From NCBI GenBank assembly GCA_900320815.1, contig ONTY01000111.1, forward strand, positions 1 through 11,661: a stretch of 11,661 nt of DNA, read 5' to 3'. The notes beneath the pieces are model-generated. The model saw only the letters and a list, made by a program, of their open reading frames with translations, had not been told where the DNA came from and made no database searches. Within the stretch, counting starts at the first letter, position 1; every line of letters starts with the position of its first letter. This DNA is from an uncultured Pseudomonadota bacterium. Lineage in GTDB: Bacteria; Pseudomonadota; Gammaproteobacteria; Burkholderiales; Burkholderiaceae_C. The translations under genes and the position numbers were made by a program. This document shows, one piece after another, positions 1,791 through 11,661 of this stretch.

Positions 1791-2123
1791 ATGAACGACG
1801 CACATTTTTTGGACTTGGCAGAAACCCTGCTGCGGCGCATTGAAGCACAATGCGATGAAATCAACGACGCAGGCGACGTGGATATTGATAATAGCCGCGC
1901 AGGCGGCGTGGTCACGCTGGCGTTTGAAAGCGGCGGGCAAATTGTGGTGAATCTGCAAAAACCGCTGCATGAAATATGGCTGGCATCGCGCGCCGGCGGC
2001 TGGCACTACCGCTGGGACGGTGCAGCGTGGCGCGACACGCGCACAGGCGAAGATTTCTACGCGCGCCTGTCGACAGAGGCCAGCGGCTGCGCCGGGCAGA
2101 CGCTGGCATTGACAGCGGGCTAG
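1791..2123 (+). CDS. cyaY: Iron-sulfur cluster assembly protein CyaY (bacterial frataxin)
   Basis: Bacterial frataxin, a small cytosolic protein that binds iron and the IscS-IscU complex and tunes the rate of Fe-S cluster assembly. The 110-residue product aligns along its length with E. coli CyaY (106 residues): MNDAHFLDLAETLLRRIE, the acidic first helix and loop (CDEINDAGDVDID) that carries the iron-binding acidic ridge, and the conserved sheet residues around NLQKPLHEIWLASRAGGWHY and the GEDFY segment. The ATG at 1791 matches the family start but has no Shine-Dalgarno; a hairpin and T-tract lie immediately upstream. It is the only plus-strand gene here, divergent from lptM-lysA (a common beta/gammaproteobacterial arrangement) and convergent with the LysE-type exporter gene. 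Confidence 0.95.
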   Translation: MNDAHFLDLAETLLRRIEAQCDEINDAGDVDIDNSRAGGVVTLAFESGGQIVVNLQKPLHEIWLASRAGGWHYRWDGAAWRDTRTGEDFYARLSTEASGCAGQTLALTAG

Positions 2124-2132
2124 GCCGAACAA

Positions 2133-2189
2133 ATACCCTCATACTTGCAGATTCATTACCGGCACAAGTAGCCGGCAACAAGATGATAC
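2133..2189 (+). repeat. 57-nt palindromic repeat, copy 1
   Basis: It begins with ATACCCTCA 10 bp after the cyaY stop codon. After ATAC come 19 nt, then a 23-nt imperfect palindrome (2156-2178; arms CCGGC 2159-2163 and GCCGG 2171-2175, 7-nt loop), then 7 nt, and a second ATAC at 2186-2189. The spacing equals that of the other three copies exactly. Confidence 0.6.
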
Positions 2190-2276
2190 CATGAACATCA
2201 TTACGATTGCTGCGGTTTTCATGTGAAACATCGACAAGACTGGCGCCCGTGCGCGTGATTTGAAGAAACGCTTTAT

Positions 2277-2333
2277 ATACTCCAACGATAAAGCATTGTC
2301 TGCCGGCATACATTACCGGCAGACAACGGATAC
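2277..2333 (+). repeat. 57-nt palindromic repeat, copy 2
   Basis: ATACTCC at 2277, a palindrome at 2300-2322 and a closing ATAC at 2330-2333, in the same geometry as copy 1 and 144 bp from it. This copy has the best hairpin: TTGTCTGCCGG (2296-2306) pairs perfectly with CCGGCAGACAA (2316-2326) around a 9-nt loop. It lies 20 bp beyond the stop codon of the LysE-type gene, so the hairpin could also mark the 3' end of that transcript, though no U-tract follows on the minus strand. Confidence 0.65.
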
Positions 2334-2352
2334 CCCAAAGGTTCTCCCACCC

Positions 2353-3000
2353 TTATTCGGCGCCCTGCCCCGCCAGCAGCAACGCTGCGCCCATGAACAT
2401 GAGCACGCCGCCGCACAGGCGGTTTTGTGCACGTTTGGCAGCGGGGGAGCGCAGCCAGCGCGCCAAGTGCGCGGCCACTGCGGCGTAGCCAAGCATGACG
2501 GCGCTATCAATGACCAGCGTGGTCAGCAGCAGGATGAAAAGCTGCGGCGCAATGGGGCGCGTGGTTTGCATGAATTGCGGCAGCATGGCTGCCATAAATA
2601 CAATACTTTTCGGGTTGCTGGCGTTGCATAGAAAACCGGCCAACAGTTTTTGATGCCTCGGTATATCGTGCGCTGCTGCATTTTTGGGTGCGTTTTCTTG
2701 CGCATACGCGCCGGGCACGCGGGCGCACCATTGGCGCAGTCCCAGCCATATCAAATACAGCGCACCGCACAATTTGACGGCAGAAAATGCAGCGGGCGCA
2801 GCGGCCAGCAGTGCGCCCACGCCACTGCCAGCGGCCAGCAGCAGCAGGGCGACGGCGGCTTCGGCGCCAGCGATGGTGGGTAAAGTGCGGTGCGTGCCAA
2901 AGCGCAGCCCGTGCCCCACGATGAGCACGGCAGCCGGGCCGGGCGCCAGCGAGAGCAGCAAGACAGCGAGCGCGTAGGCCAGCCACAGGTGCAGGCTCAT
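2353..3000 (-). CDS. LysE/RhtB-family amino-acid exporter
   Basis: An inner-membrane exporter of the LysE/RhtB superfamily, whose members expel lysine, homoserine, threonine or other amino acids. The 215 residues are of family length and show about six hydrophobic segments. The first ends in the hallmark LAPGPA near residues 18-23; the central NPKSIVFMAAMLPQF (about 128-142) is the second conserved block. A polar cytoplasmic loop of about 30 residues separates the two halves. The ATG at 3000 overlaps the recX stop by 4 bp, so it is translated behind recX although function links the two poorly. The substrate cannot be read from sequence. lysA lies nearby but in a separate transcription unit, so lysine is only a guess. 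Confidence 0.9.
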   Translation of the reverse strand: MSLHLWLAYALAVLLLSLAPGPAAVLIVGHGLRFGTHRTLPTIAGAEAAVALLLLAAGSGVGALLAAAPAAFSAVKLCGALYLIWLGLRQWCARVPGAYAQENAPKNAAAHDIPRHQKLLAGFLCNASNPKSIVFMAAMLPQFMQTTRPIAPQLFILLLTTLVIDSAVMLGYAAVAAHLARWLRSPAAKRAQNRLCGGVLMFMGAALLLAGQGAE

Positions 3001-3485
3001 GGCTGCCAGCCAGCGTCCTCAGCATCTTCGGCGGCGCTGCCGATGACGCGGCGTGCCGTGTCAAAGGAAAAACCGCGCGCCGCCAGAAAGCGCAGCTGCC
3101 GTGCGCGCTCGGCTGCGCTCTGCGGCGGCTGGCCAAACTTGCGCTGCCATACGGTGCGGGCGCGCGCAACTTCGCTGGCGCGCAGTTCGGCGGCGGCGTG
3201 CTCAACGAGTGCTTCTGGCGTGCCCTGCTCGCGCAGTTCGCGCAGCACGCGCGCCGCGCCCAGTCGCGGAGCGCGGCGGCGCAGCAGGCTTTCAGCGGCG
3301 CGCTCTTCGCTGATGAGGCCGGCGCGCTCGAGCGCATCCAGCACCGCAGTGATGTCCGCCTCGCCCTCCTCTTCGGTCAGGCGGCGTGCCAGCCTGGCGT
3401 GCAACTGGGCGCGTGTGTATTCACGGGCAGCGAGCAGGCGCAGGGCGCGCGCCTTGAGCGAGGGGGGAGGGCTGCCCGGTGGCAT
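2997..3485 (-). CDS. recX: Recombination regulator RecX
   Basis: RecX binds RecA filaments and limits their growth and their coprotease activity. The 162-residue product (E. coli: 166) is made of the family's three-helix repeats. It starts with LKARALRLLAAREYTRAQL, matching the typical ALxLLxxREyTRaEL block, then AVLDALERAGLISEERAAES, and ends with RQLRFLAARGFSFDTARRVI, the usual C-terminal block. It lies 26 bp downstream of recA on the same strand, the canonical arrangement, and overlaps the exporter gene by 4 bp. The start at 3485 places the first family block near residue 10. It is rich in Arg and Ala, as usual for RecX in high-GC genomes. Confidence 0.94.
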   Translation of the reverse strand: MPPGSPPPSLKARALRLLAAREYTRAQLHARLARRLTEEEGEADITAVLDALERAGLISEERAAESLLRRRAPRLGAARVLRELREQGTPEALVEHAAAELRASEVARARTVWQRKFGQPPQSAAERARQLRFLAARGFSFDTARRVIGSAAEDAEDAGWQP

Positions 3486-3511
3486 GGGGTGGCGGCGGCG
3501 ATGGCGGCGTG

Positions 3512-4666
3512 TCAGACGGTGGTGGCGCTGCCGCTGCCGGCGTCTTTGCTGTCCTTGGCGCTTTCTTTGGCGCCTTTTTTGCTGGCGGGCGCAGGTTCTG
3601 GGGCGGCGGCTGGGGTGATTTCAGGCAGCAGGGCAATGCCAAGTGCCGCGCGCACTTTGTTTTCAATTTCGCGCGCAAGGCTTGGGTTTTCGCGCAGAAA
3701 CTCGCGTGCATTGTCGCGCCCCTGGCCAATTTTCTCGCCATTGTAGGCATACCAGGCACCGGATTTTTCAATCACTTTGGCAGCGACGCCCATGTCAATA
3801 ATCTCGCCTTCGCGGCTGATGCCCTGGCCGTAGAGAATGTCAAACTCGGCCTGCTTGAAAGGGGGGCTGACCTTGTTTTTCACCACTTTCACGCGCGTCT
3901 CGCTGCCAATCGGCTCGTCGCCCTTTTTGATGGTGCCGATGCGGCGAATATCCATGCGCACGCTGGCGTAGAATTTGAGCGCGTTGCCGCCCGTCGTTGT
4001 CTCCGGGCTGCCAAACATGACGCCAATTTTCATGCGAATCTGGTTGATGAAAATGACGGTGCAGTTGGTTTTGTTGATGCTGGAGGTGAGTTTGCGCAGC
4101 GCCTGACTCATCAGCCGCGCCTGCAGCCCGGGGAGCTGGTCGCCCATGTCGCCTTCAATTTCGGCTTTGGGCACGAGGGCGGCAACAGAGTCAACGACGA
4201 CCATGTCAACGGCGCCAGAGCGCACGAGAGAGTCGACGATTTCCAGCGCCTGCTCGCCGGTGTCGGGCTGGCTGATGAGCAGCTCCGAGAGCTTGACGCC
4301 GAGTTTTTCAGCGTAGCCGCTGTCCAGCGCGTGCTCGGCGTCAATAAAGGCGCAGGTGCCGCCGATTTTTTGCATTTCGGCAATCACCTGCAGCGTCAGC
4401 GTGGTTTTACCGCTGGATTCTGGCCCAAAAATCTCAATCACGCGCCCGCGCGGCAGTCCGCCGACGCCCAGCGCAATATCCAGCCCGAGTGAGCCAGTTG
4501 AGACGGTCTGAATATCCTCAACTTTTTCGCCTGCGCCCAGGCGCATGATGGTGCCTTTGCCAAACTGCTGCTCAATTTGTTTGAGCGCCGCTTGCAGGGC
4601 TTTGGCTTTTTCTTCGGCGTCTTCAATGCGGGCGACGGGGGGCGGGGCAGAGTTTTTGGTGGCCAT
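3512..4666 (-). CDS. recA: Recombinase RecA
   Basis: RecA forms ATP-dependent filaments on single-stranded DNA, drives strand exchange in recombinational repair, and triggers LexA self-cleavage in the SOS response. The 384 residues are complete: N-terminal polymerisation helix, Walker [10 protein letters not shown] (81-89), [10 protein letters not shown], Walker B region [22 protein letters not shown]-binding loops L1 (around [10 protein letters not shown]) and L2 ([16 protein letters not shown]), [18 protein letters not shown], and a C-terminal tail rich in Ala, Lys and Ser that is longer and less acidic than in E. coli. It starts 24 bp behind the murA stop and precedes recX. No LexA box of the CTGT-N8-ACAG type is visible in the 24-bp spacer or the end of murA, so expression probably depends on a promoter within or before murA. 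Confidence 0.97.
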
Positions 4667-4690
4667 GATGGATTCCAGGAAAAAATGGGG

Positions 4691-5889
4691 TCAGGAAATG
4701 CGCTCAATGTCGGCGCCGAGGGCGCGCAGTTTTTCGTCCATGCGGTCGTAGCCGCGGTCCAGGTGGTAGATGCGCTCGATGCGCGTTTCGCCTTCGGCCA
4801 CGAGTGCGGCAATCACCAGGCAGGCAGAAGCGCGCAGGTCGGTGGCCATGACGGTGGCGCCTGAGAGCTGCGGCACGCCGTCAATGACGGCAGTGCGCGC
4901 GTCGGTGCTGATGCGCGCGCCCATGCGTGCGAGTTCGCCCACGTGCATGAAGCGGTTTTCAAAAATGGTTTCGGTGACGCTGCTGGCGCCAGCGGCTACG
5001 CAGTTGAGCGCCATGAATTGCGCCTGCATGTCGGTGGGAAAGCCAGGGTATTCGCTGGTGCGAAAGCTCTGCGCGCGCAGCGCCATGCCGCCGAGGCTGT
5101 GCAGGTGGATGGCGCCATCGGCGCCAGTGTGGATGTCGGCACCGGCGTCACGCAGTTTGTCGAGTACGGCGTCCAGGTGCTCGGCGCGTGCGCCCTGCAC
5201 TTCAATGGCGCCGCCGCTCGCCGCTGCGGCAACAAGGAAGGTGCCGGCTTCAATGCGGTCAGCCACGACGCTGTGTTCGCAGCCATGCAGGGCGTCAACG
5301 CCTTGTACGTGGATGCGGCGGCTGCCGTGCCCTTCAATGCGCGCGCCCATCGCAATGAGCATGTCGGCAAGGTCAGTGACTTCGGGTTCCTGCGCGGCGT
5401 TTTCCAGCACGGTTTCGCCTTCGGCTGGCGTCCGGCAGGCAGGCGTGCCTGGATGTAGCCGTGCTCCACGTCAATGAGTGCGCCCATCGCCTGCAGGCCA
5501 CGGATGTGCTGGTCCACGGGGCGCGAGCCGATGGCGCAGCCGCCGGGCAACGAGACACGTGCACGCCCCAGCCGCGCGAGCAAGGGGCCGAGCACAAGGA
5601 TGGAGGCGCGCATGGTTTTCACCATCTCATAGGGCGCCTCGTGCCCAAGCTGACCAGCGGCCTCAAAGCCCATGCCGCCGCGCTCGCCAAAGGTGGCGGT
5701 GTGTGCGCCCAGGTGGTCCAGCAGGCGGCGCATGGTGCGCACGTCGTTGAGGCGCGGCACGTTGCGCAGCCGCACTGGCTCGGGCGTGAGCAGCACGGCG
5801 CACATTTCGGGCAGGGCGGCGTTTTTGGCCCCTGAAATACGCACCTGCCCCTTGAGCGGGCGCCCGCCGCGGATGAGGAGTTTGTCCAT
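4691..5889 (-). pseudogene. murA: UDP-N-acetylglucosamine 1-carboxyvinyltransferase with internal out-of-frame deletion
   Basis: MurA transfers enolpyruvate from PEP to UDP-GlcNAc, the first committed step of peptidoglycan synthesis. Frame 1 runs from the ATG at 5889: [14 protein letters not shown], Lys22-Asn23 in SGAKNAALP, and catalytic Cys118 in [15 protein letters not shown], up to [13 protein letters not shown] (residue 154, ending at 5428). The family continuation (RLKGARITTD...TGTENFLMAATLA) is absent. Homology resumes in another frame at 5422 with [15 protein letters not shown] and runs to the stop at 4691, including FPTDMQAQ (the E. coli Asp305 site) and [12 protein letters not shown] (Arg397 site). 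About 27 residues are missing, a net loss of about 79 bp, including the part equivalent to E. coli residues 160-163 that contact UDP-GlcNAc. As written, the product would be inactive. MurA is normally essential, so a second copy or an assembly error must be considered. Confidence 0.85.
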
Positions 5890-5908
5890 GATGGATAAAA
5901 ATGCTCTT

Positions 5909-5931
5909 CTGCCCGCAAGATATGCGGGCAG
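5909..5931. repeat. Perfect 9-bp hairpin between bolA and murA
   Basis: CTGCCCGCA (5909-5917) pairs perfectly with TGCGGGCAG (5923-5931) around loop AGATA. It sits between the bolA stop and the murA start. On the minus strand a short T-run follows only 6 nt later (ATTTTTATCC), so it could be a weak terminator or a stabilising structure. It has the same 23-nt length and a TGCCsGCA core like the 57-nt repeats but lacks their ATAC boxes, so membership in that family is doubtful. Confidence 0.55.
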
Positions 5932-5935
5932 TGTG

Positions 5936-6181
5936 CTATGAATTGATGATTTTCTCGTATTCCGCTGGCGTGTACGCCTGTATCGAGATGGCGTGCAGCG
6001 CCTGGCTGCTGAGTGCGCCGTCAAGAGCGGCGTAGACCTGCCGGTGGCGCGCCAGCGGGCGCTGCCCCTCAAAGGCGACAGAGACGATGAGGGCAAACCA
6101 GTGCTGCCCGTCGCCTGTGATGTCGATGCGCTCACTGGGCAAGGCGGTGGCAATCAGGTGTTTGATGTGCTCGGCGTCCAC
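5936..6181 (-). CDS. BolA/IbaG family protein
   Basis: A BolA-family protein of the IbaG (YrbA) type, a small cytosolic protein that binds Fe-S clusters together with monothiol glutaredoxins. From the chosen GTG start it has 81 residues: [43 protein letters not shown] with the conserved histidine of the family (His46), and the C-terminal [14 protein letters not shown] block. No ATG fits; GTG at 6181 gives the normal family start and has GGGAAG 8 nt upstream. The frame stays open further upstream, but that part shows no family resemblance. The position between the mla genes and murA matches ibaG (yrbA) next to murA in many proteobacteria. Confidence 0.9.
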
Positions 6182-6335
6182 GGTGTGTGCTTCCCGTCGG
6201 TTTTCGGCAATAAAACAAGCGCCACTCCCGTGTGCTCGGCGAGGCTGGCGCTCCTGAATAAAGAGTTTGACGTATTTTTTGCGCTCTGTTTTGCGCCACT
6301 GCCCGTCAAAGATGAGGGCACTGCGCTCTCTTTTT
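6182..6335. other. 154-bp spacer between mlaB and bolA
   Basis: This is the longest gap inside the right-hand gene group. It is open in the bolA frame but its translation resembles nothing I know. On the minus strand it begins with an A-run (AAAAAAAGAGAGC) after mlaB; a TTGACG lies near 6300-6305 with no convincing -10 at 16-18 bp. A bolA-murA promoter could sit here but is not demonstrable by eye. Related genomes, as I recall them, often carry an ABC-2 transporter pair at this point; none is present. Confidence 0.3.
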
Positions 6336-6638
6336 TTATGTAATCTCCCCTTCCAGCGGCGCTTCACACAGCAGCGGCGCCGTGCCATAGAGCACCGCCA
6401 GCGTGCGCAGGCGCAGCGGCAGTCCTTTGACGGCAAAGCCGCGCTGCTGGCGCAGCGCCTCGCGGCGGCACGCCAGCAGCACCGCCAGCGCCGAGGAGTC
6501 AAAGCTCTCGAGCGCGCTGGCGTCCACCACCAGGCAGCCAGCCGCTTTGCGTTTGGGTTTGCGGCGGGCAGCCTCCAGCAGCATGGCCAGACAGGTGCCT
6601 GCCTGCACATGGGTGAGGACGGCGGGGAGTACGAGCAT
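6336..6638 (-). CDS. mlaB: STAS-domain subunit of the Mla phospholipid transporter
   Basis: MlaB is the cytoplasmic STAS-domain subunit that binds the MlaF ATPase and stabilises the MlaFEDB inner-membrane complex. The 100-residue product carries the STAS core: LVVDASALESFDSSALAVLL (about 37-56), with Ser48/Ser49 at the conserved Ser/Thr position, followed by LACRREALRQQRGFAVKGLP, matching the helix and strand of anti-sigma-antagonist-like folds. The N-terminus is shorter and less typical than in E. coli MlaB (97 residues in total). It starts 14 bp after the mlaC stop and is the last mla gene. Assignment rests mainly on position plus the STAS core. Confidence 0.82.
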   Translation of the reverse strand: MLVLPAVLTHVQAGTCLAMLLEAARRKPKRKAAGCLVVDASALESFDSSALAVLLACRREALRQQRGFAVKGLPLRLRTLAVLYGTAPLLCEAPLEGEIT

Positions 6639-6652
6639 GGCGCGGGGCGGCG

Positions 6653-7300
6653 TTATCGCGCGGCGTTGTTGCGGTTGCGCTCAGCCAGGGATTGGATGAG
6701 CGCGTCAATGCCGCCCTTGTTGATTTGCTGCGCGAACTGCGGGCGATAGTTATCGACCAGCCACACGCCAAGTACGTTCAGGTCATAGATGCGCCAGGCG
6801 CCGCTGGCGCTGCGCTCCAGGCGATAGTCAAGCTGGATGGGTTCGCCGCCGCCGCGAATGAGCGTGCGCACCAGCACCTCCTTGTCCGCTGCACTGCCAC
6901 GGAAGGGGCGCATCTCAATGCTCTTGTCGCCCACTTGCTTCAAGGCGCCGGCGTAGGTGCGCACCAGCAGCGTTTTGAACTCCTGCTGCAGCTGCTGGCG
7001 CTGCGCAGCGCTGGCCTGTCGCCAGGCGGGGCCAGTGGCCGATGCCGTCATGCGGGTGAAGTTCACGTGCGGCATGATGCGGCTGTCCACAAGCCGCATC
7101 AGACGCGACAAGTCGCCGCGCTGCAGCGCGGCGTCGCCTTTGATGGTGTTGAGCAGGTCGGTGGACAGGCGCTCCACCATGCCGTTGGGTGTTTCCTGTG
7201 CCAGCGTCCAGTGCGGGGCAGCCAGCAGTGCGGCAGGCAACAGCGCCAGGAAGGCGCGGCGCGAAGCGGGAAGGAGGTTCGTGCGTGTCATGAGGTTCAT
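6653..7300 (-). CDS. mlaC: Periplasmic phospholipid-binding protein MlaC
   Basis: MlaC is the soluble periplasmic carrier that moves phospholipid between the outer-membrane MlaA-porin complex and MlaFEDB. The 215 residues show an N-terminal signal peptide and the MlaC domain: NGMVERLSTDLLNTI, RIMPHVNFTRMTASATGPAW, a QRQQLQQEFKTLLVRTYAGAL helix region, LIRGGGEPIQLDYRLE, and AWRIYDLNVLGVWLVDNYRPQF. The signal peptide contains SRRAFLALL (13-21), which fits the twin-arginine (Tat) consensus S/T-R-R-x-F-L, followed by a moderately hydrophobic stretch and a likely cleavage after TLA at residue 34. The ATG at 7300 overlaps the mlaA stop (ATGA); an in-frame ATG at 7291 is an alternative start. Confidence 0.95.
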   Translation of the reverse strand: MNLMTRTNLLPASRRAFLALLPAALLAAPHWTLAQETPNGMVERLSTDLLNTIKGDAALQRGDLSRLMRLVDSRIMPHVNFTRMTASATGPAWRQASAAQRQQLQQEFKTLLVRTYAGALKQVGDKSIEMRPFRGSAADKEVLVRTLIRGGGEPIQLDYRLERSASGAWRIYDLNVLGVWLVDNYRPQFAQQINKGGIDALIQSLAERNRNNAAR

Positions 7301-8064
7301 GGCTCCGGTGTGTTGTCAGTGTCCAGGTCGTAACGCTCCCCGTCCGACGGGGGATTACCGTCATAAATATCGTTGCGGCGCTTTTGCAGATAGGCGTCGC
7401 GCTGGAAGCTGTAATCGTCCAGCGCCGCGCCTTCCAGCACGTCGGTGGCGGCGAGCGCATTGGCGCGCGTGTCCACGATGCGCAGCACCGCCAGACCGTT
7501 GCGCAGCCGCAGGTCTTTGAAATATGTCAACGGGTTGCCGTAGTAGTCCACGGGCAGCGCAGCGGTGTCGCGCACGGTGGAGGGGCCAAGGAAGGGCAGC
7601 ACGAAATACGGTCCGTCTTTCACGCCCCATACGCCCAGCGTTTGTCCAAAGTCCTCGCGCTGGCGCTCCAGGTGCATTTCTGTGGCCGGGTCAAGCACAC
7701 CGCCCAGCCCGATGGTGGTGTTGATGAGCACACGCCAGAACGAGGTCAGCGCCCCTTCGGGTTTGCCCTGCAGCGTGTGGTTGACGAAGGACCAGGCGTC
7801 GCTCAGGTTGCCGAAGAAGTTGCCCACGCCACGGCGCACGGGCTGCGGTATGGCGCTCTTGTAGGCAGTGGCGGCTGGCTTGAGCACCGCGCGATCCACG
7901 GTGTCGTTGAACTTGTACATGGCGCGGTTGTAGCCCTCCCCCGGGTCGCGAGCATCACGCGGCTGGTCGGCAGGCAGGCTGGCGCAGCCGGCGACCAGCA
8001 ACGCCAGAGTGGCGACTGCGGCAGCCGCTGCGCGGCGCCACAAGGGGGTGGTGTTTTTTTTCAT
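7297..8064 (-). CDS. mlaA: Outer-membrane phospholipid-removal lipoprotein MlaA (VacJ)
   Basis: MlaA sits in the outer membrane with a porin and extracts mislocalised phospholipids from the outer leaflet, passing them to MlaC. The 255-residue lipoprotein has a signal peptide ending in LLVAGC (Cys27 lipidated), then the VacJ domain: DPGEGYNRAMYKFNDTVDRA, PQPVRRGVGNFFGNLSDAWS, INTTIGLGGVLDPAT, and REDFGQTLGVWGVKDGPYFV followed by LPFLGPSTVRDT, all strongly conserved. The C-terminus continues with an acidic tail rich in Asp and Pro. Unlike in E. coli, where mlaA stands alone, it lies inside the mla operon between mlaD and mlaC, as is usual in betaproteobacteria. The gap to mlaD is 36 bp. Confidence 0.96.
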   Translation of the reverse strand: MKKNTTPLWRRAAAAAVATLALLVAGCASLPADQPRDARDPGEGYNRAMYKFNDTVDRAVLKPAATAYKSAIPQPVRRGVGNFFGNLSDAWSFVNHTLQGKPEGALTSFWRVLINTTIGLGGVLDPATEMHLERQREDFGQTLGVWGVKDGPYFVLPFLGPSTVRDTAALPVDYYGNPLTYFKDLRLRNGLAVLRIVDTRANALAATDVLEGAALDDYSFQRDAYLQKRRNDIYDGNPPSDGERYDLDTDNTPEP

Positions 8065-8100
8065 GGCAGTAAATGGAGCATAAAAAATGGATGCCCCTGA

Positions 8101-8574
8101 TTATTTCTTGTCTTCGCCGCTGGCAGCTGCGCTATTGTAGAGAAATTGGCCAATCAGATTTTCCAGCACCACGGCGGACTGGGTATCGTTCAACAGGTCA
8201 CCAGCGGCAAGATTTTCATCGCTGGCGCCCGGTTCGATGCCGATATATTGCTCGCCCAGCAAGCCGCTGGTGAGTATTTTCAGGGAACTGTCTTTGGGAA
8301 AGCTAAAACGTGCATCCATATCCAGCTCGACAGACGCACGGTAGATTCCATCGTCAAAACCCACAGACGCCACGCGCCCGACGACGACGCCGGCGCTTTT
8401 TACGGCGGCTTTTGGTTTCAGTCCGCCAATGTTGTCAAAGCGCGCTGTGATGCGGTACGTAGGCTGCCAGGAGAGCGTGAGCAGATTCGCCGACTGCAGC
8501 GCCAGAAACACCAGTGCAGCCAACGCCAGCATCACAAACAGGCCAACCCACAAATCATTGCGTGAGCGTTCCAT
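8101..8574 (-). CDS. mlaD: MCE-domain phospholipid transporter subunit MlaD
   Basis: MlaD is anchored in the inner membrane; its periplasmic MCE domain forms a hexameric ring that passes lipid between MlaC and the MlaFE transporter. From the ATG at 8574 the product has 157 residues: MERSRNDLWVGLFVMLALAA, a single N-terminal membrane helix (about 8-27), then the MCE domain with ARFDNIGGLKPKAAVKSAGV, VGRVASVGF, SLKILTSGLLGEQYIGIEPG and the C-terminal helix QSAVVLENLIGQFLYN. The start was chosen because the family begins with M-x-R-S-x-N-D. An upstream in-frame TTG at 8601 would add 9 atypical residues and overlap mlaE. An AGGA lies upstream of the ATG. Spacing to mlaE is 19 bp. Confidence 0.95.
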   Translation of the reverse strand: MERSRNDLWVGLFVMLALAALVFLALQSANLLTLSWQPTYRITARFDNIGGLKPKAAVKSAGVVVGRVASVGFDDGIYRASVELDMDARFSFPKDSSLKILTSGLLGEQYIGIEPGASDENLAAGDLLNDTQSAVVLENLIGQFLYNSAAASGEDKK

Positions 8575-8593
8575 TTTTCCAGTATTCCTTTTT

Positions 8594-9373
8594 TCAGGCA
8601 AACATCAGTGCCGTGAGCACAAAATCCAGCCCCAGTACCATGAGCGAAGCCATGACAACGGTGCGCGTGGTGGCGTGCGAGACACCCTCGGCGGTGGGGC
8701 GTGCGCACCAGCCTTGCAGCAACGCCACAAAAGTCACGCACACACCAAACACGATGCTTTTTATGACGCCATTGCCCAAGTCAGCAAACACATCCACGCC
8801 GCCCTGCATCTGGCTCCAGAACGCCCCTTCATCCACGCCAATCATGGGCACACTCACCAGCCAGCCACCCAGCACGCCCACGGCGCTGAACACGGCAGTG
8901 AGCAGTGGCAGCGCGATGACACCCGCCCAAAAGCGCGGCGCGATGATGCGGCGCATGGGGTCAACGGCCATCATCTCCATTGCCGAAAGCTGCTCGCCTG
9001 CCTTCATCAGCCCAATTTCAGCCGTCAGCGACGTGCCCGCGCGCCCAGCAAACAGCAGCGCCGCCACCACCGGGCCGAGTTCGCGCAGCAGCGACAGCGC
9101 CACCATCATGCCCACTGCCTCGGCGGAGCCGTAGCGTTGCAAAATGTTGTAGCCTTGCAGCGCCAGCACAAAACCGACAAACAGACCAGACACCGCAATA
9201 ATGAGCAGTGAATAATTGCCCAAAAAATGAATCTGGTCACGCACCAGCGAAAAACGCCGCAGCGTCGCGGGCAACAGCGCAAACAGGCGCCAGAAAAAGC
9301 GTGCGCCAAAACCAATATCAGCCAGTTTGACGCGCACCGCAGCGCCAATATCAGCGGGGTGCCAAAACCTCAT
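8594..9373 (-). CDS. mlaE: Phospholipid ABC transporter permease MlaE
   Basis: MlaE is the membrane permease of the MlaFEDB ABC transporter and dimerises in the inner membrane. The 259 residues are of family length. An amphipathic N-terminal helix is followed by several membrane segments and conserved blocks: ISGLF-type [21 protein letters not shown], the signature [20 protein letters not shown], the coupling-helix region [20 protein letters not shown] followed by PMRR, and a C-terminal [26 protein letters not shown] segment (split here: [25 protein letters not shown]). The ATG at 9373 overlaps the mlaF stop by 4 bp (ATGA), coupling permease to ATPase translation. Confidence 0.96.
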
Positions 9374-10209
9374 GCCACAGCTCCCACGCCAAAATCTTCT
9401 GCCACATCCGGCCCCGGGTAATGGAACTGTACCGGCCCGTCCGCATCTGCCCCGATAAACTGGCGCACCAGCGGGTGCGCGCTGGCGGCCACTGCGGTAG
9501 GTGTGCCATATTCCAGCAATTCACCCTCCGCCAATATCGCCACATAATCGGCAATTTCAAAGGTTTCTGCCACGTCATGCGACACGATGATGCTGGTAAT
9601 GCCGAGTGCGTCGTTCAACTGGCGAATCAGTCGTGCAGCAGTGCGCAGCGAAATTGGGTCGAGACCGGAAAATGGCTCGTCATACAGCACCAATTCCGGA
9701 TCCAGTGCAATCGCGCGTGCCAGCGCCACACGCCGCGCCATACCGCCAGAGACTTCGGCGGGCATCAAATCACGCGCGCCGCGCAGCCCGACGGCATCCA
9801 ATTTCATCAGCACAATATCGCGAATTAATTCTTCCGGCAGACTGGTGTGCTCGCGCAACGGAAAAGCGACATTGCCAAATACCGATACATCAGTAAACAG
9901 CGCACCAAACTGGAACAACATACCCATACGCCGGCGCATGGCGTAAATCTGCGCGGCGCCCATCGCTCCCACGTCTTGCCCAAAAACGAGCACCTGCCCC
10001 GCCTGCGCCCGCTCTTGCCCACCGATAAGGCGCAGCAGCGTTGTCTTGCCCCCACCCGAAGCGCCCATGAGTGCCGTCACACTGCCCTGCGGCACAGCAA
10101 GCGAGAGGTTCCTGAAGATAGGGCGCCCTTCGCCGTAGCCAAAGCGCACGCCGCGCAGCTGCACGAGTGGAGTTGCGGCATCTTGCGGGGTATCAGGGTG
10201 TGAAGGCAT
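9370..10209 (-). CDS. mlaF: Phospholipid ABC transporter ATP-binding protein MlaF
   Basis: MlaF is the cytoplasmic ATPase of the MlaFEDB transporter. The 279-residue product has all ABC motifs: Walker [10 protein letters not shown] (49-57), Q-loop near LFQFGALF (98-105), signature [14 protein letters not shown] (153-166), Walker [14 protein letters not shown] (173-185) and the switch His211 in VSHD. The C-terminal extension is as long as in MlaF homologues, which use it to contact the partner ATPase and MlaB. The start at 10209 is preferred because the ABC domain begins about 15 residues later; it has no visible Shine-Dalgarno and is preceded by a C8 run on the coding strand. Upstream in-frame residues do not resemble ABC proteins. 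First gene of the mlaFEDACB group, so its promoter should lie at 10210-10500. Confidence 0.95.
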
Positions 10210-10215
10210 AGCGCA

Positions 10216-10223
10216 GGGGGGGG
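10216..10223. repeat. Homopolymer of eight G upstream of mlaF
   Basis: A run of eight G (eight C on the coding strand) lies 7 to 14 nt upstream of the mlaF ATG, in the place where a Shine-Dalgarno sequence would be expected. Such runs can change length by slippage. In this position that would alter leader spacing rather than reading frame. Confidence 0.5.
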
Positions 10224-10637
10224 AAAAGAAAGAGCCAGTGCACGCATGAGTGGGCTGCTGGCTGCACGATTGCCCCATTTTAGCGGGCGCGCTGGCGCCC
10301 GCCTTTCCCCCTCTAGGCAGCAGGGCATTGCACTGCGCGTTTTTTTGCACACCACACGAGAGAGCGCAATGAGACGCCAAAGACTGCGGTGCGGTCAGTC
10401 TGACGAATGGCAGTGCATTTTCTCAAAATTTTGACTCTTTGGGCACAGGAATAATTTCAAAAATTTGCTCTAAATATACGCAAAAGCACAAGGGCAGCTG
10501 AATATATTCCTATATGGCGCAATATGCGAAAATTCGATACTCCAAAAATACCTTCAATATCGTGTCTGGCTCCACGGGCAGCCCGCCCAAGGTGGGGCAA
10601 CTGGGGGAAAGCAGCCAATACAGAGCAGGCTGCTCAT

Positions 10638-10694
10638 ATACCCTCAGTATTAGAACTCTATTGCCGGCGTATATTGCCGGAAGTTACAAGATAC
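10638..10694 (+). repeat. 57-nt palindromic repeat, copy 3
   Basis: ATACCCTCAG at 10638 shares its first nine bases with copy 1. The palindrome is at 10661-10683 (arms CCGGC 10664-10668 and GCCGG 10676-10680, 7-nt loop) and the closing ATAC at 10691-10694. Geometry is identical to copies 1 and 2: 19 nt and 7 nt between the ATAC boxes and the palindrome. A separate inverted repeat (AGCAGCC/GGCTGCT) lies immediately to its left. Confidence 0.6.
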
Positions 10695-10788
10695 CCACCT
10701 TTCAAGACTCTGAATGCACATTTCAAGGTGTGTGCCGACTGGCGGAGATGTATGCATATCTCGCTGCGAAAGAGTCGTCGTTGCCAGT

Positions 10789-10845
10789 GTATGCTTTCAT
10801 TACCCGTATATATTGCAGGCAACAGAGTGTTGTATTGTAGAGTAT
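10789..10845 (-). repeat. 57-nt palindromic repeat, copy 4, inverted
   Basis: Read on the minus strand it begins with ATACTC at 10845, has a 23-nt degenerate palindrome at 10822-10800 (TTGCC at one end, GGGTAA at the other) and a closing ATAC at 10792-10789. The 19-nt and 7-nt spacings match the other copies exactly. The palindrome is the weakest of the four. With copy 3 it forms an inverted pair spanning 208 bp. Confidence 0.5.
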
Positions 10846-10864: not shown

Positions 10865-11032
10865 TCAGCCGCCGGTGAATGCCCAGCGCCAGAGCGCGTA
10901 GAGCGCCAACGCCGCAACGCTCATGGCAGCGCCCCAGCGGGCACGGCGGGCAAAGACGGGGGCTTCGTCGGCGAGTTCAGCGTCGCGCCGGCAGGCAGCG
11001 GCACGCAGCAGCGCCATAAGGGTGTAGAGCGC
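10865..11032 (-). pseudogene. Possible 3' end of an unidentified membrane-protein gene
   Basis: In a frame different from the GST gene, 56 codons end at a TGA at 10865 and read ALYTLMALLRAAACRRDAEL, then ADEAPVFARRARWGAAMS, then VAALALYALWRWAFTGG. The alternation of hydrophobic and Arg-rich parts, with a last hydrophobic segment close to the C-terminus, looks like the tail of an inner-membrane protein. Third codon positions are mostly G or C, as in real genes here. No start with a Shine-Dalgarno is visible; the first ATG is at 11017. It overlaps the last 112 bp of the GST frame. It may be the remnant of a gene whose 5' part was lost when it was joined to the GST gene, or a small overlapping gene. 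The family is not recognised. Confidence 0.35.
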
Positions 11033-11661
11033 TGCACTTCGGGGCGTTCCAGGAAGTTTTCCAGCACGCGCTGCACCTGGCTGTATTTGTGCAGTTCCAG
11101 GGCCTCGCCTGCGCCATAGTTTTCAGACAGGCAGTTGACCCAGGGGAAAATGGCAATGTCGGCGATGGTGTAGTTGCGCCCCATCACCCAGGAGCGACCT
11201 TTGAGGTGCGCGTCGAGCACGCCCAGCAGCCGCTTGGCTTCGTTGGTATAGCGTTCCAGTGGGCGTTTTTCTTCCAGCAGCCGCCCGTCAAATTTATAGA
11301 AATAGCCAAACTGTCCAAACATGGGGCCAATGCCGCCAACCTGGAACATGAGCCATTGCAGCGTCTGCGCGCGCGCGAGCGGACTGGAGGGCAAGAATTG
11401 GTTGGTTTTCTCCGCCAGATACAGCAGGATGGCGCCAGATTCAAACAGCGCAATGGGTTCGCCGCCGGGGCCGTCGGGGTCAATAATGGCGGGGATTTTG
11501 CCGTTGGGAAAGGTGCCGAGAAACTCGGGGCTGTGCTGCTCGTCGGCTTCAAAGCGCACGCGGTGCGCCTCATATGACAGGCGGGTTTCTTCCAGCATGA
11601 TGCTGACTTTGGCGCCATTGGGGGTGGGCGCGGAGTAGAGCTGGATTTGCTCGGCCTGGCG
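10921..11661 (-). CDS. Glutathione S-transferase, YfcG/YghU-like, 5'-partial with abnormal C-terminus
   Basis: The frame is open through the right edge, so the true start is outside or right at the edge. The first visible residues (RQAEQIQLYSAPTPNGAKVS) carry the thioredoxin-fold start of nu-class GSTs, with the TPNG motif whose Thr/Asn contacts glutathione. FPNGKIPAIID and ESGAILLYLAEK follow (glutathione-binding cis-Pro and Glu-Ser), then an alpha-helical C-domain with GRNYTIADIAIFPWV. Such cytosolic enzymes conjugate or reduce substrates with glutathione, often as disulfide-bond reductases. Up to about 11033 (ENFLERPEVQR) it is normal. The last 35 residues (from STPLWRCC) do not resemble the usual short end and are rich in Pro, Ala and Cys. 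They are probably an out-of-frame reading of a neighbouring gene's tail. Confidence 0.85.
   Translation of the reverse strand, partial: RQAEQIQLYSAPTPNGAKVSIMLEETRLSYEAHRVRFEADEQHSPEFLGTFPNGKIPAIIDPDGPGGEPIALFESGAILLYLAEKTNQFLPSSPLARAQTLQWLMFQVGGIGPMFGQFGYFYKFDGRLLEEKRPLERYTNEAKRLLGVLDAHLKGRSWVMGRNYTIADIAIFPWVNCLSENYGAGEALELHKYSQVQRVLENFLERPEVQRSTPLWRCCVPLPAGATLNSPTKPPSLPAVPAGALP

Follow-up and report, generated by a model that had tools for sequence, protein, structure and literature searches.

The 11,661-nt stretch of DNA analysed here (the window) comes from a gut bacterium of the genus Ottowia and contains four copies of a 57-nt intergenic element, in which a 23-bp palindromic core sits at fixed distances between two ATAC tetranucleotides. 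These copies belong to a family with several hundred members, which is confined to two Ottowia genomes among those searched, concentrates at the 3' ends of genes, is shared between orthologous gene ends and shows a helical register between neighbouring copies. We give a probability of roughly one half to the reading that the element is a lineage-specific, selectively kept and putatively protein-bound, DNA-bending site at gene ends, similar in role to the bacterial interspersed mosaic elements (BIMEs).

A rigid element family in two Ottowia genomes

To describe the family, we used the strict pattern ATAC-N20-TRCC-N13-GG-N10-ATAC (57 nt), with the reversed pattern as control. Within the window it matched exactly at only four places, which are the four copies, and tolerating up to three mismatches gave five matches against 0.64 expected, a number reached by one of 200 shuffles. 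The genome to which the window belongs (G000; 2.10 Mb, 339 contigs) contains 300 exact matches (154 on the plus and 146 on the minus strand). A second gut bacterium of the same genus, Ottowia sp. RGIG2912 (G027; 2.0 Mb, 97% complete), contains 366, and the reversed pattern was absent from both whole genomes. An earlier note, made from the letters of the window, had proposed a genuine family of fixed spacing and drifting sequence; with hundreds of relatives in two genomes and none for the control, this proposal stands against chance.

A weight matrix applied to samples of the two genomes (G000, 359 kb; G027, 725 kb) yielded 132 and 282 elements, respectively, at a threshold of at least 14 bits, and three further elements per genome at 8 to 14 bits. 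The scan of reversed sequence, performed in an earlier run with a smaller G027 sample, gave no element. Part of the sampled contigs had been picked for holding matches and the remaining ones mostly by number, so that copy density in the samples is inflated; the whole-genome strict counts are unaffected. Scaling from strict to matrix counts extrapolates to roughly 520 copies in G000 and 800 in G027. The matrix and the other fixed-spacing scans are blind to copies with insertions, deletions or heavy decay.

The spacing remained rigid when it was left free. Among 2295 spacer combinations tried on the first samples, (20,13,10) gave 76 matches in G000 and 91 in G027. Two combinations of equal total length, (20,12,11) with 25 and 4 matches and (20,16,7) with 2 and 10, probably represent alternative readings of (20,13,10) copies; (20,13,11), which is longer by one base on the 3' side of the core, gave 12 and 5. 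The 5' spacer is constant, and the length of the 3' spacer is 10 or 11 bases. The consensus is approximately ATACYC-N16-ATTGCCGGC-(7, AT-rich)-GCCGGCAA-N7-ATACCC, its 23-bp core being formed by two inverted half-sites TTGCCGGC that flank a 7-bp AT-rich spacer. Even the closest pair among 107 G000 copies is alike at only 46 of 57 positions, and mutual information between element positions mostly reflected correlation of near neighbours. A search for phased extra ATACs outside the elements gave nothing clear except a mirror arm (ATAC-19-core-19-GTAT), present at 13 of 234 G027 cores; short arms alone (GTAT-7-core-7-ATAC) were found at none of the 234.

Among 60 genomes (G000 and 59 relatives), G027 is the sole other carrier, and the remaining 27 genomes of the genus had no strict-pattern match. 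In a family-wide sample of 399 genomes, matches appeared in four genomes besides G000, and in a phylum-wide sample of 398 in seven, with a single match in each except for four in one genome (G067). A covariance model built from 110 copies, with which the best 150 candidates per genome were scored, returned nothing at E ≤ 0.01 in the 27 same-genus genomes and G067, and the latter was dropped as a carrier on this ground. A narrower pattern (spacer TTATGTT), run over named genomes in a scan that may have left out the window's own records, gave ten stretches, all from Ottowia sp. isolate RGIG2912 from goat omasum. A stricter pattern matched no viral contig, and a phage source of the elements was set aside. 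Among the genomes searched, the family is thus restricted to two of Ottowia. Since no other genome of the genus carries it, empty sites in related strains, which the earlier note had suggested comparing, can be approached indirectly only. Judged by titles or abstract openings, no paper listed by our searches of the open-licence literature in PubMed Central (PMC) describes the family.

Position at gene ends and sharing between orthologous loci

Gene calls were obtained with our own codon-usage script. In the sampled DNA, elements occupy 30 of 39 convergent gene pairs in G000 and 56 of 71 in G027, compared with 33 of 175 and 118 of 407 tandem pairs and 10 of 34 and 13 of 75 divergent pairs. For elements within 250 nt of a stop codon, the median distance from it is 42.5 nt in G000 and 23 nt in G027. 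The four window copies all lie between called genes, as had been claimed. That elements are never inside a gene does not hold for the family, in which 6 of 132 (G000) and 6 of 282 (G027) overlap called coding sequence. The clear case is an element doublet translated within the linker of an ATP-binding cassette (ABC) ATPase-permease gene; in a relative from another genome (G005), which is 72% identical, the linker is shorter and different.

Location just past stop codons, often by 0-40 nt, and a GC-rich palindrome with matching arms would also be expected of an element that acts in RNA, as a terminator, a protector of mRNA 3' ends or a regulatory hairpin. Against this, the orientation of elements relative to tandem genes is almost neutral (30:23 in G000, 83:62 in G027), and the consensus has no T-run after the core. 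Hairpin-plus-T terminators were about equally frequent at convergent ends with and without an element (17 of 54 versus 5 of 18 in G000; 33 of 92 versus 14 of 36 in G027), and no clear difference was seen at tandem ends (4 of 30 versus 10 of 63; 22 of 107 versus 28 of 116). Rfam models gave no family at the gathering threshold in the window and none at E ≤ 1 in window positions 2100-2360. We therefore rejected an intrinsic terminator, given the missing T-run and a terminator frequency not clearly tied to the elements, and regard a function at the RNA level as very unlikely.

The argument for retention comes from the comparison of orthologous loci. Among 97 reciprocal-best gene pairs, 83 were assessable at the 3' end in both genomes. 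An element was present in both genomes at 22 of these ends, in G000 only at 6, in G027 only at 8 and in neither at 47, with 10.1 shared ends expected (Fisher p = 1.4e-8). The corresponding counts for 5' ends were 8, 8, 8 and 57, with 3.2 shared expected (p = 0.002). We compared 17 close element pairs at such places, of which 13 had the same and four a different orientation; one G000 element was paired twice. The 13 pairs of equal orientation are 45% identical at variable positions, where random pairs across the two genomes are 33.5% identical (sd 9.8); at motif positions the corresponding values are 87% and 90%. Hence, at places with a trace of common descent the motif is about as intact as anywhere, and the remaining positions have diverged to nearly the random level. 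Elements also turn over, because under strict adjacency only one of the six element-bearing pairs among 45 conserved gene pairs was shared.

These data bear on a once-mobile family, of the kind of miniature inverted-repeat transposable elements (MITEs), which would have no present function and owe its 3'-end position to removal from promoters and genes. Its lineage restriction, the 6 and 8 gene ends at which the genomes differ and the doublet that fills the ABC ATPase-permease linker speak for such an origin. In addition, duplicated flanks in G027 often cease to match at the element edge (24 + 12 one-sided pairs in G027, one in G000). We do not rely on these breakpoints, because the independent events are few and the shared motif biases where alignments end. 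On the other side stand the scarcity of intermediate-scoring copies, the motif retained at orthologous sites amid positions near the random level and the helical register of neighbours described below. Moreover, the element has no terminal inverted repeats: its ends are direct ATAC repeats and its palindrome is internal. A target-site duplication of the MITE type was not seen, although no clean empty site was obtained and a 4-bp duplication is still possible. On this evidence, a relic without function appears rather unlikely.

In both layout and surroundings, the element also recalls a tyrosine-recombinase attachment site, with an 8-7-8 core, arm sites and genes that would move as cassettes together with their elements. 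The core of such sites has a 7-bp overlap between its half-sites. Paralogous genes that look by eye like ankyrin-repeat lipoproteins alternate with elements in cassette-like arrays (L143:174-2600, L097:4908-7054 and L184:5264-6007), in the order gene, about 14 nt, element, about 14-25 nt, gene, and some homology breaks fall at the core or at element edges. Core spacers, in contrast, vary between copies, and in the window the neighbours of the elements are ordinary housekeeping genes. Only two PF00589 genes occur in G027 (open frames of 317 and 356 aa), both of XerC/XerD-like length, and a dedicated recombinase was dismissed, none having been found in this genome. We consider an attachment site highly improbable.

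Helical register, core symmetry and candidate binding proteins

Neighbouring elements keep a helical register. The core centres of the 62 pairs at distances up to 100 bp are separated by 72-74 bp (16 pairs), 82-85 bp (35), 93-97 bp (10) or 99 bp (1), which places 61 of the 62 in three classes, and all three relative orientations behave alike. For these pairs the Rayleigh R is 0.89; extending the limit to 150 bp gives 77 pairs and an R of 0.75, whereas 3000 simulations of the 77 pairs did not exceed 0.40. Gaps between element edges gave an R of 0.80 (simulated maximum, 0.42), with an apparent period that varies by orientation. Furthermore, no two centres lie less than 72 bp apart, though the 57-nt unit permits about 57 bp in tandem. 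The register across orientations is our main argument for a double-stranded complex. In the literature searched, we met no description of such a register for REP-like (repetitive extragenic palindromic) repeats.

Base composition beside the elements oscillates as well, clearly in the left flank but only weakly in the right flank past 36 bp. AT content has maxima at about -63, -54, -41, -33, -21, -11, -1, 20, 30, 40, 52 and 62 bp from the core centre; those within about 33 bp are largely derived from the motif, and there is none at +10. For elements without a close neighbour, the AT profiles of the two genomes agree in the left flank (38 to 79 bp from the centre; r = 0.67, p ~0.009) and in the near right flank (26 to 68 bp; r = 0.81, p ~0.001). 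At 10.5 bp, the G027 left flank exceeded all 400 jitter controls, with a best period of 12.4, and the right flank exceeded all but four. When elements with neighbours are included, both genomes have 10.5 as their best left-flank period, and depending on the set the best flank periods range from 10.5 to 12.4. We read this as DNA that is bent in register with the element, one side only being well supported.

The two arms of the core match each other more often than shuffled arms do, with 786 Watson-Crick cells of 1056 in G000 (shuffled, 742 ± 9) and 1934 of 2256 in G027 (1876 ± 9), and the excess persists in each genome when near-duplicates are removed. Compensatory changes, which the earlier note had named as a check, are thus present within each genome. 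Pooled arm covariation is 0.219, which none of 500 shuffles reached, compared with 0.157 in shuffles. Of the single core pairs, 28-40 reaches significance in both genomes, 24-44 does so in G000, and 23-45, 25-43 and 26-42 do so in G027; the other core pairs are not significant or hardly vary. As a dimer site, a cruciform, a hairpin and subfamilies all give matching half-sites, the arm test does not separate a duplex site from a hairpin. A hairpin that tolerates wobble should spare G.T and lose A.C. In the eight-pair stem, G.T is below the shuffled mean (188 versus 213 in G027; 87 versus 93, about 1.4 sd, in G000), and A.C is depleted somewhat more (77 versus 104; 61 versus 72). For the inner six pairs the two are about equal, with G.T/A.C counts of 56/47 and 42/39 in the two genomes.

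Matching arms would also suit a single-strand mobile element of the RAYT (REP-associated tyrosine transposase) or IS200/IS605 type, in which an HUH transposase reads the hairpin and cuts at ATAC, 19 nt before and 7 nt after the palindrome. IS200/IS605 elements have subterminal hairpins with the cleavage tetranucleotide outside, at a fixed distance from the palindrome, and the geometry and high copy number of our family resemble this arrangement. A Y1_Tnp insertion sequence is indeed encoded in G000 (L031:1500-2140; IS200/IS605-type, PF01797, with an apparent TnpB fragment by eye), while its 3.3-kb locus contains no element, and G027 has no Y1_Tnp gene at 97% completeness and 366 copies. The register of neighbours and the best-matching G000 pair, with its 46 of 57 positions, further oppose a single-strand mobile element. 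We thus disfavour a RAYT/IS200 origin, which concerns descent and not hairpin folding, and judge this explanation unlikely. From the earlier proposal of a structured or protein-bound unit, possibly served by a dedicated endonuclease, we retain the former as the best reading; an endonuclease of the RAYT/IS200 kind does not accord with the missing gene.

Which protein might bind? DNA gyrase came into consideration because the location, the palindromic dyad and the flank oscillation recall the gyrase motif of E. coli. According to Sutormin et al. 2018 (PMC6379681), that motif covers 130 bp, with wings at -63:-17 and 20:66 and a period of 10.75. Cleavage sites are enriched there downstream of highly transcribed operons, an enrichment described as not hard-wired in the sequence. 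The C-terminal wrapping domain of GyrA (L275, L276) is 93% identical between G000 and G027 (distance 0.081). Compared with seven further members of the genus, its identity is 74-78%, and that of the N-terminal part 78-88%. Along the branch of the two carriers, the distance of the domain to others is 0.247, compared with 0.127 among six others. At columns invariant in these six, 36 of 272 C-terminal positions carry lineage-specific changes, compared with 16 of 407 N-terminal ones (p = 1.2e-5), and the domain is also fast relative to its own N-terminal part and to XerD (four other genomes). Gyrase is nevertheless a candidate only, and an unlikely one. If it were the binder, several hundred hard-wired sites of high specificity, covering most convergent junctions, together with a remodelled wrapping domain would amount to a rotationally phased grid for supercoil management. 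We hold such a grid to be doubtful and improbable, and it is weakened by the right flank not being significant beyond 36 bp.

Several observations count against a bound and bent duplex site. Agreement of the right-flank AT profiles is not significant at 36 to 78 bp (r = 0.41, p ~0.08) and is lost beyond, and weak AT maxima continue past 65 bp. In G000, power at 10.5 bp is absent from the left flank, where the best period is 12, and the near right flank does not stand out; only 2 of 400 controls reached the level of a far right stretch, in which no signal had been expected. A core-only scan found no ATAC arm at 9 of 81 cores in G000 and 9 of 234 in G027; a looser core pattern gave further armless cores, many of them presumably due to chance. 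A hairpin predicts arm matching as much as a symmetric duplex site does, and the stronger depletion of A.C than of G.T leans mildly towards folding. The sharing of 3' ends could stem in part from repeated insertion into the same permissive gaps, a worry raised by the 4 of 17 close pairs that differ in orientation and by the G000 element that was paired twice. For gyrase in particular, the C-terminal part of ParC is as fast as that of GyrA (27 of 148, p = 0.20, six other genomes), and the exclusion of distances below 72 bp fits better with a footprint of about 72 bp than with the 130 bp of gyrase. For HU/IHF and H-NS, a comparison of 12 genomes revealed neither a difference in copy number nor a special paralogue in the two carriers, and our search found no binding protein for the elements.

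Weighing these points, we keep the putative protein-bound site as the explanation, which could work as follows. One protein complex would assemble on each element, most likely in its double-stranded form, with the 23-bp core as its dyad. The ATACs, whose centres lie about 33 bp away on one side and 20 bp (in some cases 33 bp) on the other, may act as auxiliary contacts or flexible steps, and the adjoining DNA would bend in register. The sites would have dispersed in the ancestor of the two Ottowia lineages and, presumably through selection on binding, have been retained chiefly at the 3' ends of genes, and most of all in convergent gaps. There, the bound protein would probably handle supercoiling generated by transcription or insulate converging transcription, as may be compared with BIME-2 and gyrase in E. 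coli. If this holds true, these would be natural genomes in which the sites of an architectural or topological protein can be read from the sequence, including their rotational setting on the helix. The role of extragenic palindromic repeats at gene ends would then become testable, since the sites are strict, numerous, common to two species and not found in the other genomes of the genus searched.

The window copies and comparison with known systems

All four copies have the positions and the ATAC spacing that had been reported for them. Copy 1 (2133..2189, plus strand) has its ATACs at 2133-2136 and 2186-2189 and its core at 2156-2178 (centre 2167). It starts nine nt past the end of a frataxin (CyaY-like) gene (1791..2123, plus; PF01491). 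At the orthologous gene end in G027 (L088), an element lies 7 nt past the stop codon in the orientation of copy 1. Copy 2 (2277..2333, plus; core 2300-2322, centre 2311) occupies the same convergent gap and stops about 20 nt short of the 3' end of a LysE-type translocator gene (2353..3000, minus; PF01810), the convergent partner of the frataxin-like gene. Copy 3 (10638..10694, plus; core 10661-10683, centre 10672) lies between genes, upstream of an ABC-transporter ATPase gene (9370..10164, minus; PF00005; start codon as called by the script), which adjoins the MlaE gene (8594-9373; PF02405). Copy 4 (10789..10845, minus) has its first ATAC at 10842-10845, its core at 10800-10822 (centre 10811) and its second ATAC at 10789-10792. 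It lies downstream of a glutathione S-transferase-like gene (10921..11598, minus; Pfam glutathione S-transferase models) that heads towards copies 3 and 4.

Three further observations were made in passing. A further dispersed repeat of G027, about 65-70 bp long, frequently has its start some 8 nt past the right ATAC of an element (L096:9418-9488, L183:8138-8206, L159:15934-16006, L200:2248-2312). Hairpins of the form GTAGGGGCG...CGCCCCTAC beside some G027 elements (L155:7000-7090, L084:2970-3160, L083 near 10412) look by eye like REP-like repeats of the GTAG type, though that genome has no Y1_Tnp gene. In the window, a MurA-type gene (EPSP synthase fold; 4691-5891, minus) seems split across two frames near 5410-5440, which appears to be a sequencing error of the draft genome or a broken gene.

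Among known systems, IS200/IS605 ends share with the Ottowia element a tetranucleotide at a fixed distance from a palindrome; unlike them, it has the same tetranucleotide on both sides of one palindrome and no transposase gene in G027. As in REPs, the palindrome can form a stem and shows compensatory changes. RAYT-associated REPs are defined (PMC3733652 and PMC2817692) by a GTAG (or CGTC) tag at the palindrome foot; the consensus foot here is ATTG/CAA, without a tag of this definition. A repeat-flanked RAYT (Y1_Tnp) gene was likewise not found in either carrier (none in G027, and one in G000 with no element around it). The CGTC-tagged REPs and Rickettsia palindromic elements, as described by Di Nocera et al. 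2013 (PMC3733652), are similar as palindromic families without a dedicated transposase, and REPs inside genes are reported there as well; compared with these, the Ottowia element lacks the CGTC tag and differs in length and architecture.

The E. coli gyrase motif (PMC6379681) resembles our element in a composition oscillation of about one turn beside a dyad and in the enrichment of cleavage sites downstream of transcribed operons. It is degenerate, whereas the Ottowia element has a strict core and ATAC arms, and a 130-bp field is only in part shown in Ottowia, where the exclusion distance is 72 bp. With BIMEs and REPs, including BIME-2 and its association with gyrase or IHF, the family has in common short, palindromic, high-copy extragenic repeats with matching arms, close pairs and proposed protein binding (PMC2817692 and PMC6379681). 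It departs from them in the missing GTAG or CGTC tag and Y1 transposase gene of G027, in its 57-nt three-part unit with ATAC on both sides and in neighbour centres at 72, 83 and 95 bp. Taken together, the features that define a REP, a MITE, an attachment site or a terminator do not describe the element, and its place and pairing, with high-copy extragenic units in regularly spaced pairs of varying orientation, are those of a BIME-like mosaic.

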